Source: Helicobacteraceae bacterium
GTDB taxonomy: Bacteria; Campylobacterota; Campylobacteria; Campylobacterales; Sulfurimonadaceae
Assembly: GCA_015488775.1 (NCBI GenBank)
Contig: WFNF01000032.1
Coordinates: 1-33,386 of the forward strand
Length of the DNA: 33,386 nt
Direction: 5' to 3'
Shown here: positions 27,336 to 33,386 of the stretch, piece by piece
Position numbering within the stretch: the first letter of the stretch is position 1
How the letters are laid out: the number at the start of each line of letters is the position of its first letter
Notes under the pieces: generated by a model
Database searches by the model: none
What the model saw: the letters and a program-made list of their open reading frames with translations, nothing else
What the model was told of the DNA's origin: nothing
Made by a program: the position numbers and the translations under genes

Positions 27336-28472
27336 TTATTCACAAGTCCAGTGATTATCTTTACATTTTTCCATATTTTTTCTTAATTCTATTGCCTTTG
27401 TAAATAATGAGCTATCTGTAATGTTTTTAAGTTCAGATTCACTTTCCTCATACTCACCAATCATATAGTAACTATATGCCAGAGCATAACGCATATTTTC
27501 ATCCTCAATTAAACCTGAACGATATATTGCATCCCTCATAGCAACAATATTTTCAAAATTTGAATACTCAAGATATATTGCTACTCTTTGTTTAAATTTC
27601 TCTTTTGTATCTAAAATCTGAGAATTTTTATAAAGAGCTTGAACAAACGAGCGTGATCGTCTATAAAGTTCAGCAGATTCTTTTGTAAACTTATAATCTT
27701 TATAAGATGCTTCATCATACAATTCAGCTGCTGCTTGTATATATCCTTTATCAATATATAGTTGTGCTAATAAAACTGTAATTTTTGCATTACTTGAATA
27801 TATTAAATTAGATTTTTCACCTAGTATAATTGCACTATCAAGTGAACCTGATTTTTTTAGTGCTGAAATAAATGCTAAAGCTGACTTAGCATCATCAGGT
27901 GCATTTTTCAAGTAAATTGAAGCATCATTTATAGCACTTTGGTAAAGGTTAAGTGACACCAAATAAGCAAATCTTTGTTTATTAAACTGATAATATTTAG
28001 GATATAATTTAAGAGCCTTAGATAAAGTTTCTAAAGCATCATTTACCTTAGCAAGTCTAAATTCTGATTCAGCTTTTAAAGCAAATATTGACTCATTATT
28101 TGCTAACTCTTTTGAATTTTTAATATATATAATAGTATCTTCATACTTTTTTAATTTAAAAGAGTTTTGAGCCATATATAAATAAAGAGATTTATCATTT
28201 TGTCCATTATCTAAAGCAAGTTGAAAATTTTTATTTGCATCTTCATAATTATCTAACTTAGTAAACACCAAACCATTTAAAGTATAGTACATAACGAAGT
28301 CAAACTCTTTTTTACTTGTATCGGCATTTTTTAAAGCGTCACTTGCTTTAACTATATTTCCATCTTTAAGCAAAAGTGTTGCCAAAGATACATAATCAAT
28401 CTCATCAGTTTTTTTATCTTTAGCATAACTAAGGTTTACCAAAAGTAAAAGGGTAATAAATATATTTTTCAT
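27336..28472 (-). CDS. Exported TPR protein of the TonB operon
   Basis: The 378-residue protein starts with a signal peptide (MKNIFITLLLLVNLSYAK) and consists of tandem tetratricopeptide repeats, visible as repeating helix pairs with the A/G/Y spacing of TPRs (for example YYTLNGLVFTKLDNYEDANKNFQLAL and LYLYMAQNSFKLKKYEDTIIYI). The ATG at 28472 is preferred over the GTG at 28478, as the signal peptide then starts directly. As last gene of the DUF3450-TtpC-ExbB-ExbD-TonB-TPR set it is likely a periplasmic scaffold of the energising complex. The same gene order is known from Vibrio TonB2 loci. Confidence 0.85.
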   Translation of the reverse strand: MKNIFITLLLLVNLSYAKDKKTDEIDYVSLATLLLKDGNIVKASDALKNADTSKKEFDFVMYYTLNGLVFTKLDNYEDANKNFQLALDNGQNDKSLYLYMAQNSFKLKKYEDTIIYIKNSKELANNESIFALKAESEFRLAKVNDALETLSKALKLYPKYYQFNKQRFAYLVSLNLYQSAINDASIYLKNAPDDAKSALAFISALKKSGSLDSAIILGEKSNLIYSSNAKITVLLAQLYIDKGYIQAAAELYDEASYKDYKFTKESAELYRRSRSFVQALYKNSQILDTKEKFKQRVAIYLEYSNFENIVAMRDAIYRSGLIEDENMRYALAYSYYMIGEYEESESELKNITDSSLFTKAIELRKNMEKCKDNHWTCE

Positions 28473-28481
28473 AATCACTTC

Positions 28482-29108
28482 TTAATTCAAATCAAATCTG
28501 ATTTTTTGTTTTGCCCAAACTTTTACAGCTTGACCCTTATACATTGCAGGTTTAAATTCCCAAGACTTCACTCCAGAAACGGCGACATCATCAAACACAC
28601 CTTCTGGTTTAGACTCTAGTACTTTAACTTTTTCAACTCTACCTGAGCTTGATACTAAGATATTCATTACAACATAACCAGTAACACCATTTTTTCTAGC
28701 TTTTTTAGGATATTCAAGAGCTGACCTTGAAGCTGGTTTAGGTGCTTCATCTACTGAGTTTTCATCCATTACAACATCTTTAGATGCACCCTTTAAAAGA
28801 TCATCACCAAAAGAGGCATCTTCGCTAACAAAACTATCTAATCCAGTATCTATACCACCCAAAGACGAGCTAAGATTAGGTCTTGGACTAGATTTACTAG
28901 GTTTTGGCTTAGATTTTTTTGGTTTTGGCTTTGGTTTTGGTCTTGCTTTTGGTTTTACAATCTTCTTCATCTCAAAACTAAGAGGTGCTGGTTTTTTTTT
29001 CTCTTTTTTAGGGCTTTGCTCTTCATTCATAGCTATAACAGTAAAAAAAACAAAAAAGATACCAAATAACATCCATACTAAGGCTTTGAGTTCAATAGGG
29101 ATTTTCAC
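28482..29108 (-). CDS. tonB: TonB-family energy transducer
   Basis: TonB links the proton motive force, via ExbB/ExbD, to outer-membrane receptors. The 208-residue protein has one N-terminal membrane helix (about residues 10-27), a Lys/Pro-rich stretch (about 34-75) that spans the periplasm, a Ser/Asp-rich region, and a C-terminal TonB domain (about 125-208) with YPKKARKNGVTGYVVMNI...VKSWEFKPAMYKGQAV. GTG start at 29108 directly follows the exbD stop, with GAGG upstream. It belongs to the TonB2-type set. No TonB-dependent receptor is present in the window. Confidence 0.92.
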   Translation of the reverse strand: MKIPIELKALVWMLFGIFFVFFTVIAMNEEQSPKKEKKKPAPLSFEMKKIVKPKARPKPKPKPKKSKPKPSKSSPRPNLSSSLGGIDTGLDSFVSEDASFGDDLLKGASKDVVMDENSVDEAPKPASRSALEYPKKARKNGVTGYVVMNILVSSSGRVEKVKVLESKPEGVFDDVAVSGVKSWEFKPAMYKGQAVKVWAKQKIRFDLN

Positions 29109-29510
29109 TTAAGCCTCTTTATTTGTTGCAACTGCAACATCACTTGCACCACTTAACCTACATTGATCTACAACTTCTATAAGTTTATCTACAGGTATTC
29201 CATCATCAGTAATTACAAGTATGCTTTTATTGGTTGATGTTCTAAGCATCTCTCTCAATTTACTTTGAATAGCCCAAGCTTTGATTGGTTGACCATCAAT
29301 ATATGGTTGAGCAGTATTATCAAGATAAACTCTTATAACTTTAGATGAAGCTTTTGAAGCAGAACTAGCACCAGGACGCTCTAAATCTAACTTCATATCT
29401 TTTGTAAAAGTTGAACTAACCATAAAAAATATAAGTAAAATAAACACCATATCTATAAGTGGTGACATATCTACTTCAGCGTCGCTACTCTTTTTCTTTC
29501 TAAATCTCAT
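29109..29510 (-). CDS. exbD: ExbD/TolR-family proton-channel subunit
   Basis: The 133-residue protein has the ExbD/TolR layout: a short cytoplasmic N-terminus, one membrane helix with the essential proton-path aspartate (Asp20 in PLIDMVFILLIFF), and a periplasmic domain. It works with the ExbB-like proteins upstream to energise TonB. AAGGGA precedes the ATG, which overlaps the small ExbB gene by 11 bp. Confidence 0.93.
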   Translation of the reverse strand: MRFRKKKSSDAEVDMSPLIDMVFILLIFFMVSSTFTKDMKLDLERPGASSASKASSKVIRVYLDNTAQPYIDGQPIKAWAIQSKLREMLRTSTNKSILVITDDGIPVDKLIEVVDQCRLSGASDVAVATNKEA

Positions 29511-30108
29511 CTTTTATCCCTTCCGAACAATAAATATCTTTTATCATCTCTAAATCAATCTCCATATTGTCAGCACGTCTTTGTAAAAGTCTTCCAATAA
29601 CTAAACCAGGAACTGCAACAACAAGACCTAATTGTGTTGTAAAAAGAGCTTGAGATATACCACCTGCTATACCCCCACTTTGTGAAAAAAGTGCTGCACT
29701 TGCTAATGAATCAAAAGTTTCTATCATACCAACAACTGTACCTAAAAGACCAATTAAAGGTGCTGCAGCAACTATAGTCATAACAAGTTTAGAGTACTTT
29801 TTAAGATTAACTTCATACTTATAAAAGGCATCATCTAAACTACGTCTACAAGATACTTTTTGTGTTTTACTTATAACTAAACCATCATAAATAGCTTTTT
29901 CTACTAAACCCTTAGCTTGTACACGTTTTCCAGATTTGTATTTTCTTATTAGATTTCTAACACTCTTTTTAGATCCACGTTTTAAAAGATAAAATCTCAT
30001 ACCAAGTGAATACCAAAGTATACAAACCAATATAAACAGTGGCCACATAACAAAGCCACCACTATTCATATAATCAATAAAAAGTTCTGCGTAATATACT
30101 ATAGACAT
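29500..30108 (-). CDS. exbB: ExbB/TolQ/MotA-family proton-channel subunit
   Basis: The 202-residue protein has three membrane helices in the MotA/TolQ/ExbB pattern: MWPLFILVCILWYSLGMRFYLL near the N-terminus (about residues 20-41), then after a cytoplasmic loop PLIGLLGTVVGMIETF (about 117-132) and ISQALFTTQLGLVVAVPGLVIG (about 147-169). It starts with ATG at 30108, sharing one base with the stop of the larger ExbB-like gene (TAATG). It corresponds to ExbB2 in the Vibrio TonB2 system. Confidence 0.92.
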   Translation of the reverse strand: MSIVYYAELFIDYMNSGGFVMWPLFILVCILWYSLGMRFYLLKRGSKKSVRNLIRKYKSGKRVQAKGLVEKAIYDGLVISKTQKVSCRRSLDDAFYKYEVNLKKYSKLVMTIVAAAPLIGLLGTVVGMIETFDSLASAALFSQSGGIAGGISQALFTTQLGLVVAVPGLVIGRLLQRRADNMEIDLEMIKDIYCSEGIKDEI

Positions 30109-31415
30109 TATTTTGTCTTATTGTACTCATTGATCAGATGCAATGCTGAGTGTTCCATAGAGTCCTTAACTTTTTCAGCCCAACCACCAAGTAAGTTAGC
30201 AAGCATTAACATTGGAATAGCTACAACAAGACCTAACTCAGTTGTAACAAGTGCAATAGATATACCACCACTAAGTAATTTTGGATCACCTGTACCAAAC
30301 TCAGTGATAATATCAAAAGTGGCGATCATACCAGTAACAGTTCCAAGTAATCCAAGTAGTGGAGAAACAGCTGCAATAACCATAATAGCAGAGCTAAACC
30401 TATCTAGGCGCGTGCTCTCATGCATAATTGATTCAGCAACAATATCCTCTATATGTTCACGATCTCTATCTAAGTTTCTAATAGTAGCTTTTAAAACTCT
30501 AGCAGTTGCACCTTTTTTACCTTTTAAAAATTTTAAAGCTCTCCCACTACCACCAGCAAGTAACTCTTGTAAGGCTTCTGGTGCTAAAGTAGAAGTTGCA
30601 GCTGAACTACCTATTAAAAATATTGATCTAGCAAATGCTAAAATAAGACCAACAATACCAAGAATAACAATAACCCATCCAATGATACCACCAGAGTTTA
30701 TAACACTTAGTACAGTTTTTTGAGCTACATCATCAATCTCTTTTGAACTATTTTCATATATAAAAATATTTAAAATATCTGGATTTAGATTTTTATCTAA
30801 TGCATTTGCAGTTACTGAACCATTTAAAGTTTTATATAGTTTAAGTTTGCCAGCTCCAGCAGGAACTAAAGAGCCACTAGCCTTAGATGAAACACCAAAA
30901 GTGGCAACATTTCCAACATTTATAATTGTGCCAGTAATTTCACTACCATCTTCAAGATAGAATTTAGCTTTGTGTTTTCTTATTGTTGCTAACTCATCAA
31001 TTAATAATATAGATTTTCTGAACATACTTTCCAAAGAAGCTTTATAATTTGATTTATCTATCTTAATATCTTTATTATAAGTGCTAAGAGTTGAGTTTGC
31101 TTGCAAACTAACAGCTTCAACTAAAGATGTATCATCACTAACATTTTGTGAATTTTGTTGTGCTTGGTAAAGTTTATTAGATAAGGCTTCACTTTGAGCA
31201 TCTTTTCTAATTACAACATTTTGAAGAGTTTCAATCTCTAACTTTGCAGATTTTAAATTATGAGTTTGTTTTGCCTTTAACTTAGAAAGACGAGAAGTTA
31301 AAACTTTTTTCTGTGCTTTTAAAAATGCAAACTCTTTTGCGTAAGCACGTTCTAACTCATTTGATGCACTTAGTGTAGTTACTAGTAAAGCTAGTATTAT
31401 AAAAATATTTCTCAT
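30108..31415 (-). CDS. TtpC-like large ExbB/MotA-family protein
   Basis: The 435-residue protein has a signal peptide (about residues 1-18), a long periplasmic region with an initial coiled-coil (about 22-100), a beta-rich segment (about 150-215, KFYLEDGSEITGTIINVG), and a C-terminal MotA/TolQ/ExbB domain with three membrane helices: GWVIVILGIVGLILAFARSIFLIG (about 246-269), PLLGLLGTVTGMIATFDII and ISIALVTTELGLVVAIPMLMLANLLGG. The form (signal peptide, coiled coil, then ExbB domain) and the position upstream of a second, shorter ExbB match TtpC of Vibrio TonB2 systems. AGGAG upstream supports the ATG. Overlaps the DUF3450 gene by 4 bp. Confidence 0.85.
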   Translation of the reverse strand: MRNIFIILALLVTTLSASNELERAYAKEFAFLKAQKKVLTSRLSKLKAKQTHNLKSAKLEIETLQNVVIRKDAQSEALSNKLYQAQQNSQNVSDDTSLVEAVSLQANSTLSTYNKDIKIDKSNYKASLESMFRKSILLIDELATIRKHKAKFYLEDGSEITGTIINVGNVATFGVSSKASGSLVPAGAGKLKLYKTLNGSVTANALDKNLNPDILNIFIYENSSKEIDDVAQKTVLSVINSGGIIGWVIVILGIVGLILAFARSIFLIGSSAATSTLAPEALQELLAGGSGRALKFLKGKKGATARVLKATIRNLDRDREHIEDIVAESIMHESTRLDRFSSAIMVIAAVSPLLGLLGTVTGMIATFDIITEFGTGDPKLLSGGISIALVTTELGLVVAIPMLMLANLLGGWAEKVKDSMEHSALHLINEYNKTK

Positions 31416-32170
31416 TTTACGCTCCTAATCATAGCATTTGGCAATTCAAAGTATCCACTTCTGATTTGTTTTTTATACGCATCAAAAAGATTTAAAACCA
31501 TCTCTTTTTTCTCTTTATTTAATTCCTCTTTATAAAACCATCCATTAGCATCTTTACTTACATATCCGACCCTATCATCTGGAGTTCTAAAAAAAATAGC
31601 TAAAGAACCAACTCTTGCAATTTGAACTAAAACATCTTTGCCGTCAAGTTTAATAGTTTGTTTAAATAATCCATTTTCTTTTGACATTCTAATTGTATCT
31701 GCGTAAGAGTTCCAAGCTAAGGATAAAGCTTTTTGTGGTGTCAGAAGATTTTCATTTAATTGTCTTTTTATATTATTTAAATCTGCAATTCTATCTTCGA
31801 CTTTAAAAGGGATACCTCTTTTAATACTTTTTTCAAGTTCAGCTAGAGCTTTTAAAACTACAGGCTTCAAACCCTTAGAGTTTTTAGTTAAATCTTTGAT
31901 AAGCTTTTGAGTTTTAGCTAGTTCTACGTTAAGCTGTTTAATCTTTAAATTTTCTCTCGCAATAGTTGATTCCAAATCATTTTTTTGCATAACTAAAGAC
32001 TTCATTGATGATTTATGTTCATCCTTCATATCTTGTATCTGTGAATCTAGACTTTCAACTTCTGCTCTAAGTTCCATAAGAGACTCAGCAAGGTTATCTG
32101 ATGATGTAGACGCTAAGCTTAAACTACTTATCAATAGTAGAGAACTTATGATTTGAGGTATTTTCAACAT
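31412..32170 (-). CDS. DUF3450 family periplasmic protein
   Basis: The 252-residue protein starts with a signal peptide (MLKIPQIISSLLLISSLSLA, cleaved near residue 20), then a long coiled coil (about residues 28-95) and a C-terminal domain with IARVGSLAIFFRTPDDRVGYVSKDANGWFYKE, which is the DUF3450 signature as I know it. The ATG at 32170 is chosen because GGAG lies 6 bases upstream; a GTG two codons earlier would be too close. As first gene of the operon it probably assembles with TtpC in the periplasm. Expression is likely driven from the promoter at about 32193-32198. Confidence 0.8.
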   Translation of the reverse strand: MLKIPQIISSLLLISSLSLASTSSDNLAESLMELRAEVESLDSQIQDMKDEHKSSMKSLVMQKNDLESTIARENLKIKQLNVELAKTQKLIKDLTKNSKGLKPVVLKALAELEKSIKRGIPFKVEDRIADLNNIKRQLNENLLTPQKALSLAWNSYADTIRMSKENGLFKQTIKLDGKDVLVQIARVGSLAIFFRTPDDRVGYVSKDANGWFYKEELNKEKKEMVLNLFDAYKKQIRSGYFELPNAMIRSVK

Positions 32171-32192
32171 ACTCACTCCATTTTTTTATCGA

Positions 32193-32198
32193 ATTATA
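32193..32198 (-). promoter_or_regulatory. -10 element of the TonB operon promoter
   Basis: TATAAT on the minus strand (32198-32193), about 22 bp before the DUF3450 ATG. The -35 region would fall at about 32216-32221, inside the GTTAC array. Confidence 0.6.
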
Positions 32199-32208
32199 AA
32201 AATATGTA

Positions 32209-32257
32209 GTTACTTTGAAGTTACTTGAATGAAACGAAATGGTTACAAAAGAGTTGT
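32209..32257. promoter_or_regulatory. Phased GTTAC array, likely response-regulator operator
   Basis: GTTAC occurs at 32209, 32220 and 32242, with degenerate copies GAAAC at 32231 and GTTGT at 32253: five units in exact 11-bp steps. OmpR/PhoB-family regulators bind head-to-tail repeats with 11-bp period. From memory, the Campylobacter PhosR box is GTTTC-N6-GTTTC, the same 5+6+5 layout. The array covers about -25 to -70 of the TonB operon promoter. Confidence 0.6.
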
Positions 32258-32341
32258 TTTTGTAATTAAGTAAGCTTATAAAAGTTTACAGAATTATAAA
32301 TTAGTGAAATTGCCTTTAAATTTCTCAAAAGAAACAAATAT

Positions 32342-32377
32342 GTAACAAAACTTGCTTATATATATAAACTCTGTAAC
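32342..32377. promoter_or_regulatory. Two inverted GTTAC half-sites before the response-regulator gene
   Basis: GTAAC (reverse complement of GTTAC) occurs at 32342-32346 and 32373-32377, 31 bp apart, just upstream of a TGTTATAAA -10-like sequence (32383-32391) for the regulator gene. They may allow autoregulation but are not in 11-bp phase. Confidence 0.35.
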
Positions 32378-32427
32378 CTAAGTGTTATAAAGTTTATCTA
32401 TTATTAGTGTATTAATTTGGAGTATAT

Positions 32428-33102
32428 ATGAAAGCAACTATATTAATTGTAGAAGACGAAATTGACCTACTTGAACTTTTAGAGTACAGATTACAAAAAG
32501 ATGATTATGAAACTTTAGGTTTTGTAAATACAAAAAATGTAAGAAAAGCTCTTGATGAAGAAAAAGTAGATTTAATAATTATGGATAGGAACTTACCTGA
32601 CATAGAGGGTAGCGAATTTATTGCAATGTTAAGAGACTTTGGGATGAATACACCTGTAATATTTTTGAGTGCTAAAGATTCCAATTATCAGATAAAAGAG
32701 GGATTTTTAAGAGGCTGTGATGATTATATAACAAAACCATTTGATTTTGATATATTATTACTAAGAATAGCAGCAATATTAAAAAGGTTAAATTCATCAA
32801 ATATTATTGAAACTCAAATATATAAAGATATCAAAATAGATCACAATAGTAGACAAGTTGAAGTCGATAAGGAAAATATTGAGCTAACAAAACTTGAATT
32901 TGATCTTTTGTCTCTACTTATCAAAAACCAAAATAAAGTACTAAAAAGAGATGATTTACTAGAGATAATTTGGGGTAAAGATTCAAGTTACCAAGGTAGA
33001 ACAGTAAATGTAGCTATAAATAGATTAAAAGAAAAAATAGACCCACTAAAAGAAAAAGAGTATATAAAAACAATACGTGGCGTAGGGTATTCCCTTTATT
33101 AA
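32428..33102 (+). CDS. OmpR/PhoB-family response regulator (PhosR-like)
   Basis: The 224-residue protein has a receiver domain with Glu9-Asp10, phospho-acceptor Asp53 in IIMDRNLPDIEG, Ser81 and Lys103, and a C-terminal winged helix (about residues 130-224) ending IKTIRGVGYSLY. The MDRNLP form recalls PhoB-type regulators and the phosphate regulator PhosR of Campylobacter; the assignment to phosphate is only suggestive. No histidine kinase follows in the window, so it is an orphan here. GGAG lies upstream of the ATG. It is transcribed away from the TonB operon, with a phased operator-like array between them. Confidence 0.9.
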   Translation: MKATILIVEDEIDLLELLEYRLQKDDYETLGFVNTKNVRKALDEEKVDLIIMDRNLPDIEGSEFIAMLRDFGMNTPVIFLSAKDSNYQIKEGFLRGCDDYITKPFDFDILLLRIAAILKRLNSSNIIETQIYKDIKIDHNSRQVEVDKENIELTKLEFDLLSLLIKNQNKVLKRDDLLEIIWGKDSSYQGRTVNVAINRLKEKIDPLKEKEYIKTIRGVGYSLY

Positions 33103-33114
33103 AATTAATTTTGA

Positions 33115-33281
33115 ACAATAAAGAGGGCATCTAATATAAAATGATAGCAATATATCGTTTTATATAAGTAAGATAAAAATTTAAATATAACATATAAAAT
33201 AAAAGAATAATTAACAATAAATAGAATGAACAAGTAAGTAAAAAGGTAATTAAGTAAATAAGTAAGTAAAAAGAAGAAATC
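33115..33281. other. A/T-rich rRNA operon trailer
   Basis: Between the response regulator and the 5S gene lies low-complexity DNA with repeated TAAGTAA/AAGTAAGTAA words (33234-33276). On the minus strand it gives T-rich sequence directly after the 5S rRNA, a likely termination region without an obvious hairpin. No gene is credible here. Confidence 0.5.
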
Positions 33282-33386
33282 CGAACTAGGCAGCGACCTA
33301 CTTTCACACACCTGCAAGGTGCAATATCATCAGCGATGAGAGGCTTAGCTTCTGGGTTCGAAATGGGACCAGGCGTTTCCCTCTCT
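33282..33386 (-). rRNA. rrf: 5S ribosomal RNA, truncated by the window end
   Basis: The minus strand reads AGGGAAACGCCTGGTCCCAT, then CGAACCCAGAAGCTAAG and ends in AAGTAGGTCGCTGCCTAG, the conserved 5S rRNA core and 3' part. The 5' end (a few to ~15 bases) lies beyond the window. The 3' boundary near 33282 is approximate. It marks the end of an rRNA operon that lies to the right. Confidence 0.95.

Follow-up and report, generated by a model that had tools for sequence, protein, structure and literature searches.

A putative double Pho box upstream of a TonB2-type operon, next to a PhoB-like paralog, in a Campylobacterota genome

The TonB operon and its neighbourhood

The window analysed here is a stretch of 33,386 nucleotides (contig WFNF01000032.1, assembly GCA_015488775.1) from a Helicobacteraceae bacterium placed in the Sulfurimonadaceae. 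Its minus strand carries six genes for, in order, a DUF3450 protein, TtpC, ExbB, ExbD, TonB and a TPR protein (Table 1), which is the order of a TonB2/Ttp system and is the same in relatives. The true start of the DUF3450 gene is likely the ATG at 32170 behind a GGAG, and not the GTG given in the open reading frame list. Across an intergenic region of 251 bp, the plus strand carries the gene for a PhoB-like response regulator. At the contig end, right after the regulator gene, positions 33280-33386 (minus strand) look like a 5S ribosomal RNA gene.

In several relatives, a regulator gene is followed by a divergent beta-helix lipoprotein gene, the six-gene TonB operon and a receptor gene, and in some relatives the same cluster lies beside pstCAB. 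A regulator gene within 1.5 kb of the operon was not seen in the relatives, and their wider loci place the lipoprotein gene between the two. In the genome of the window, the lipoprotein and receptor genes stand together on a separate contig (C113), and their products are probably the partners of the window's TonB complex. A cluster protein of 730 amino acids was also considered as a PhoX phosphatase and rejected, having no Pfam phosphatase match and a homolog in a relative that weakly matches Beta_helix.

Table 1. Features of the window, and related features on other contigs and in other genomes
Feature	Position	Strand	Basis or remark
DUF3450 protein (TtpB-like), operon gene 1	31412..32176	-	PF11932 5.6e-26; naming after PMC6957404
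TtpC-like MotA/TolQ/ExbB-domain protein	30108..31415	-	PF01618
ExbB	29500..30108	-	PF01618
ExbD	29109..29510	-	PF02472
TonB	28482..29108	-	PF03544
TPR protein (TtpD-like), last operon gene	27336..28478	-	TPR families; position as TtpD2, PMC6957404
Inferred -10 element TATAAT	32193..32198	-	sequence; identical 10-bp spacing in 12-locus ungapped alignment
Four-unit (double) Pho-like box, TonB operon	32209..32246	-	phasing, conservation, matrix, genome-wide E
Units of this box in operon-strand order	32242-32246, 32231-32235, 32220-32224, 32209-32213	-	
Putative fifth unit (GTTGT on +)	32253..32257	-	matching positions in relatives score at background
Weaker second four-unit box with TATAAT	32290..32349	-	100 bp upstream of main box, same strand
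Two-unit box and -10 of regulator gene	32372..32407	+	GTAAC CTAAGT GTTAT AAAGTTTATC TATTAT
Units and -10 of regulator-gene box	32373-32377, 32384-32388; TATTAT 32399-32404	+	10 bp between second unit and -10
PhoB-like response regulator	32428..33102	+	receiver and Trans_reg_C; TonB-linked paralog clade
Beta-helix lipoprotein, cut by contig end	L088:1-961 (contig C113)	-	
TonB-dependent receptor	L088:1077-4181 (contig C113)	-	CarbopepD_reg_2 and Plug domains; genome's strongest box
Divergent PiT and porin-like gene, boxes both sides	L087:8389-8532		two units before PiT; three units and TATAAT before porin-like gene
Alkaline phosphatase and phytase-like lipoprotein, candidate regulon	L203 (G006:C23) and L217 (G012:C122)		box model, relatives

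The array and the promoter of the operon

On the plus strand, GTTAC units begin at 32209, 32220 and 32242, with GAAAC at 32231 and GTTGT at 32253, and every step is exactly 11 bp. The earlier note had described these five units, and their positions and phasing are confirmed by the sequence. The five-unit score of 21/25 occurs a single time in the 33-kb window when both strands are scanned, and 5000 dinucleotide shuffles of the intergenic region (251 bp) never reached it. With the consensus and the period (8-14) left free, a four-unit score of 18/20 arose in about 1 of 150 shuffles.

In the orientation of the TonB operon, the array runs GTAAC CATTTC GTTTC ATTCAA GTAAC TTCAAA GTAAC as head-to-tail units, after which come TACATATTTT and then TATAAT at 32198-32193, so that the spacing is exactly 10 bp. 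Transcription of the operon would start near 32186, and because the -10 sits exactly 10 bp past the last unit, the array would span about -60 to -23. A Pho box is marked by at least two direct repeats in 11-nt steps lying just upstream of the -10 and over the -35; here there are four such repeats, kept in relatives, and they occupy that position relative to the predicted start. In E. coli, too, about 10 bp separate the Pho box from the -10 that follows it. The earlier proposal that the array covers the promoter and -35 region of the operon is supported by the 10-bp distance from the last GTAAC to TATAAT, a spacing kept in 12 loci.

The weaker four-unit box further upstream scores 17.5 bits, which makes it the runner-up site of the 33-kb window; its score was reached in 0 of 3000 shuffles and its genome-wide E is 0.016. 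This distal box may be the leftover promoter of a former lipoprotein gene, or a second promoter of the operon.

Conservation across relatives

Of 60 relatives, 21 have the DUF3450 gene, the first of the operon, with two weak matches among them, and the set of loci was widened with other genomes from a sample of the order. Four units scoring at least 16/20 lie upstream of this gene in 15 of the first 19 loci, and the arrays of relatives are mostly found 42-48 bp ahead of the start codon. Twelve loci align gap-free over 60 bp, with invariant G and T in the units, invariant -10 positions T52, A53 and T57, and the 10-bp spacing kept. Over both genome sets, a significant four-unit array (0 of 1000 shuffles in each case) is present in 23 of the 36 operon-bearing genomes searched, which bears out the expectation that an alignment of the intergenic region would reveal conserved phased units. 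The genomes lacking a significant array are mostly more distant, at 38-46% DUF3450 identity, and the box is absent from distant DUF3450 operons in some families.

Furthermore, a matrix built from 11 relatives, with the window excluded, gives the array 39 bits as the top site of the 33 kb, followed by sites of 17.5 and -3.4 bits. The fifth position scores at background in the relatives, and this unit probably lies outside the operator. The conserved core of the array is four units, not five, and four units are two tandem Pho boxes, a size already known among Pho operators.

Other genes carrying the box

A box model was made from 12 upstream regions, the window among them, and run on the whole genome from which the window comes, a draft of 170 contigs with 95% completeness. 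The top site lies upstream of the TonB-dependent receptor gene on contig C113 (E 1.8e-13) and the third between a PiT phosphate transporter gene and a porin gene on contig C71 (E 5.9e-5), both outside the training set, while the second is the array of the TonB operon (E 1.2e-11), for which the window is part of the training set. The porin on C71 has no Pfam match of its own and owes its name to a likeness to porin-type outer-membrane proteins and to homologs beside pstS; no PstS match was obtained in this genome with the query used. Sites beyond the top three are weak, several of them within or near ribosomal or other genes, and some of the weak sites of the scans (at a DAHP synthase gene, a TetR-type gene and ribosomal genes) are probably due to chance.

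In eight relatives, most sites with E<0.01 beyond the operon precede receptor, beta-helix lipoprotein, porin, PiT or regulator genes. The box also precedes relatives' genes for an alkaline phosphatase (PF00245, E 0.0016) and a phytase-like protein (PF13449, E 0.019), it lies upstream of the porin gene adjoining pstS in pst-bearing relatives, and PhoU and PstS are also among the box-bearing phosphate genes, with weaker sites. Three genomes (G013, G028 and G036), in which the DUF3450 gene was not found, carry the box upstream of porin or PiT genes. An order-wide scan of 299 genomes returned at least five positives, an underestimate because strict filters left only 18 scored candidates per genome.

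The box is thus present before phosphate-acquisition genes of the same lineage, a further mark of a Pho box. As the phosphate-related genes lay outside model building, they lend independent support to this identity, and the element is best read, on its sequence and distribution, as the Pho box of this lineage. The connection with phosphate, which the earlier note had left open, is strongly supported by these genes. The plain GTTAC-N6-GTTAC pair, which had been proposed as a means of finding the regulon, was rejected as a marker: it occurs at 7 sites genome-wide against 10 for the reversed control, with 3 of the 7 inside genes, and in the lack of any excess such pairs are non-diagnostic.

The adjacent regulator and its paralog

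The adjacent regulator combines a receiver with a winged-helix effector domain (PF00072 and PF00486, both above cut-off), and no histidine kinase gene lies beside it. Its best NCBIfam match is TIGR02154 PhoB, but at 173.9 bits this is under the equivalog cut-off of 296.2, and the protein is accordingly filed as a PhoB-like paralog, not as PhoB. The family model itself may not fit this phylum, because the kinase-linked paralog on contig C107 likewise falls under the cut-off with 193.4. The reading of the array as an operator of the OmpR/PhoB type is supported.

In a phylogenetic tree, the regulator falls in a clade of 16 (support 99/97) whose members are associated with TonB, receptor or lipoprotein genes; this clade is separate from the PhoB-like proteins linked to PhoR, PhoU or PstS. 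A quick tree with more paralogs recovered this split, with weaker deep forks (90-92 SH-aLRT). Both copies are found in about a dozen genomes, and the TonB-linked paralog persists in many genera as a clade of its own. In a Sulfurimonas MAG, a tandem pair of PhoB-like regulators (L070:2766-4136) adjoins a TonB-dependent receptor.

The box ahead of the regulator gene scores 11.2 bits (P 0.0017 against intergenic shuffles). Box-like sites stand before 12 of 13 TonB-linked response regulator genes (P<=0.022), some of them weak or otherwise spaced, and before none of the eight kinase-linked phoB-like genes tested. The neighbour regulator therefore appears, from these sites, to control its own gene. 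Its receiver retains the acidic pocket, Asp, Ser and Lys, and it is probably phosphorylated by a PhoR-like kinase encoded elsewhere.

Both paralogs of this genome have the recognition helix RTVNVAINRLKEKI, and they are therefore likely to share DNA targets. The notion of a regulator dedicated to the TonB complex consequently stands only in part: the clade supports an association with TonB and receptor genes, but a dedicated binding specificity is less certain, because the helix is the same in the paralog and porin and phosphate genes use the box as well. The box may be used by the neighbour, by the kinase-linked PhoB-like protein or by the two together.

A proposed phosphate-starvation operator for TonB

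Very probably, the double Pho box drives the TonB operon in phosphate starvation through a regulator of the PhoB family, with the neighbour as the autoregulated paralog of the module. The four 11-bp GTAAC units would hold two PhoB-type dimers in tandem, and the double box would take the place of a -35 directly upstream of the -10 of ttpB(DUF3450)-ttpC-exbB-exbD-tonB-ttpD. On phosphate starvation, the phosphorylated regulator would bind the array head-to-tail and recruit RNA polymerase, such that the TonB complex is made along with the TonB-dependent receptor, the beta-helix lipoprotein, the porin and the phosphate transporter under the same control. The neighbour would be the PhoB paralog of this transport module.

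A rather different division of labour, in which the box is mainly used by the kinase-linked PhoB-like protein of C107, leaving the neighbour as a modulator or a copy in decay, has chances somewhat below even. It is favoured by the shared recognition helix, by the lack of a kinase beside the neighbour, and by the three genomes in which the box precedes porin or PiT genes, the DUF3450 gene was not found and the regulator falls in the kinase-linked clade. However, the TonB-linked paralog forms its own clade in many genera, usually with its own box, and the receiver of the neighbour keeps its phosphorylation-pocket residues. It is improbable that an OmpR-family regulator answering to another signal, such as iron, osmolarity or a metal, reads the array and that the TonB system serves iron, as does the six-gene TonB2 complex of Vibrio vulnificus, which is Fur-controlled and iron-induced (PMC6957404). 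The best Fur-like site in the intergenic region matches the classical consensus at 11/19 positions, at or below shuffles (P 0.996), and Fur control of the operon was rejected on this absence of a classical-consensus site; moreover, the genes preceded by the box include those for a phosphate transporter, porins, an alkaline phosphatase and a phytase-like protein. That the phasing arose by chance in AT-rich intergenic DNA, as the unenriched simple pair might suggest, is refuted by the conservation of units, phase, -10 spacing and gene distance across many genera, together with 0 of 5000 shuffles, and its probability is negligible.

The autoregulated PhoB duplicate, lacking an adjacent kinase, the TonB2-type complex, the TonB-dependent receptor and the beta-helix lipoprotein could together form a dedicated phosphate-starvation module that actively imports a phosphorus compound through the outer membrane, a proposal that we make tentatively and rate at nearly, but not quite, an even chance. 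Among the sources covered, which did not include subscription journals, no paper was found on a Pho-controlled TonB2 system, and none of the papers found assigns the import of phosphorus compounds to TonB2-type systems; the sole paper found that joins DUF3450, TonB and phosphate concerns iron. The novelty lies in joining a TonB2-type complex to a putative Pho box and to a PhoB paralog bearing a box of its own. This gives the Sulfurimonas-like branch of Campylobacterota a candidate Pho box and a testable Pho regulon, and puts an entire TonB energising complex, with its receptor, under apparent phosphate control. It points to TonB-driven active import of a phosphorus source through the outer membrane, and offers a clear case of PhoB duplication in which one copy is attached to a transport module.

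Comparison with known systems

Pho boxes consist of 11-nt direct repeats on which PhoB is bound head-to-tail, and those of E. coli and other bacteria share with the present array the tandem 11-nt repeats, the placement at phosphate uptake and phosphatase genes, and the occurrence of multiple boxes per promoter (PMC4415409). The core differs, being GTAAC here and CTGTCAT in the E. coli Pho box, and, unlike in the E. coli Pho system, the target is a TonB energising operon and the regulator scores under the PhoB equivalog cut-off. Within the same phylum as the host of the window, the PhosR box of Campylobacter jejuni consists of GTTTC-type repeats, and we know of no TonB operon in the PhosR regulon. 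PhosR and PhosS are a PhoB/PhoR-like pair acting on pst and phoX under phosphate limitation, in the summary of Wosten et al. (2006) that is given in PMC3197622.

The closest likeness in gene content is the TonB2 system of Vibrio vulnificus, TtpB2-TtpC2-ExbB2-ExbD2-TonB2-TtpD2, in which the DUF3450 protein is TtpB2 and the TPR protein is TtpD2 (PMC6957404). Both systems have the same layout, with DUF3450 before TtpC and a TPR protein after TonB. Fur control belongs to the Vibrio type case and does not define the gene set. The two systems differ in control, which is by Fur and iron in V. vulnificus, whereas the operon described here has a Pho-type box and an adjoining PhoB-like regulator.
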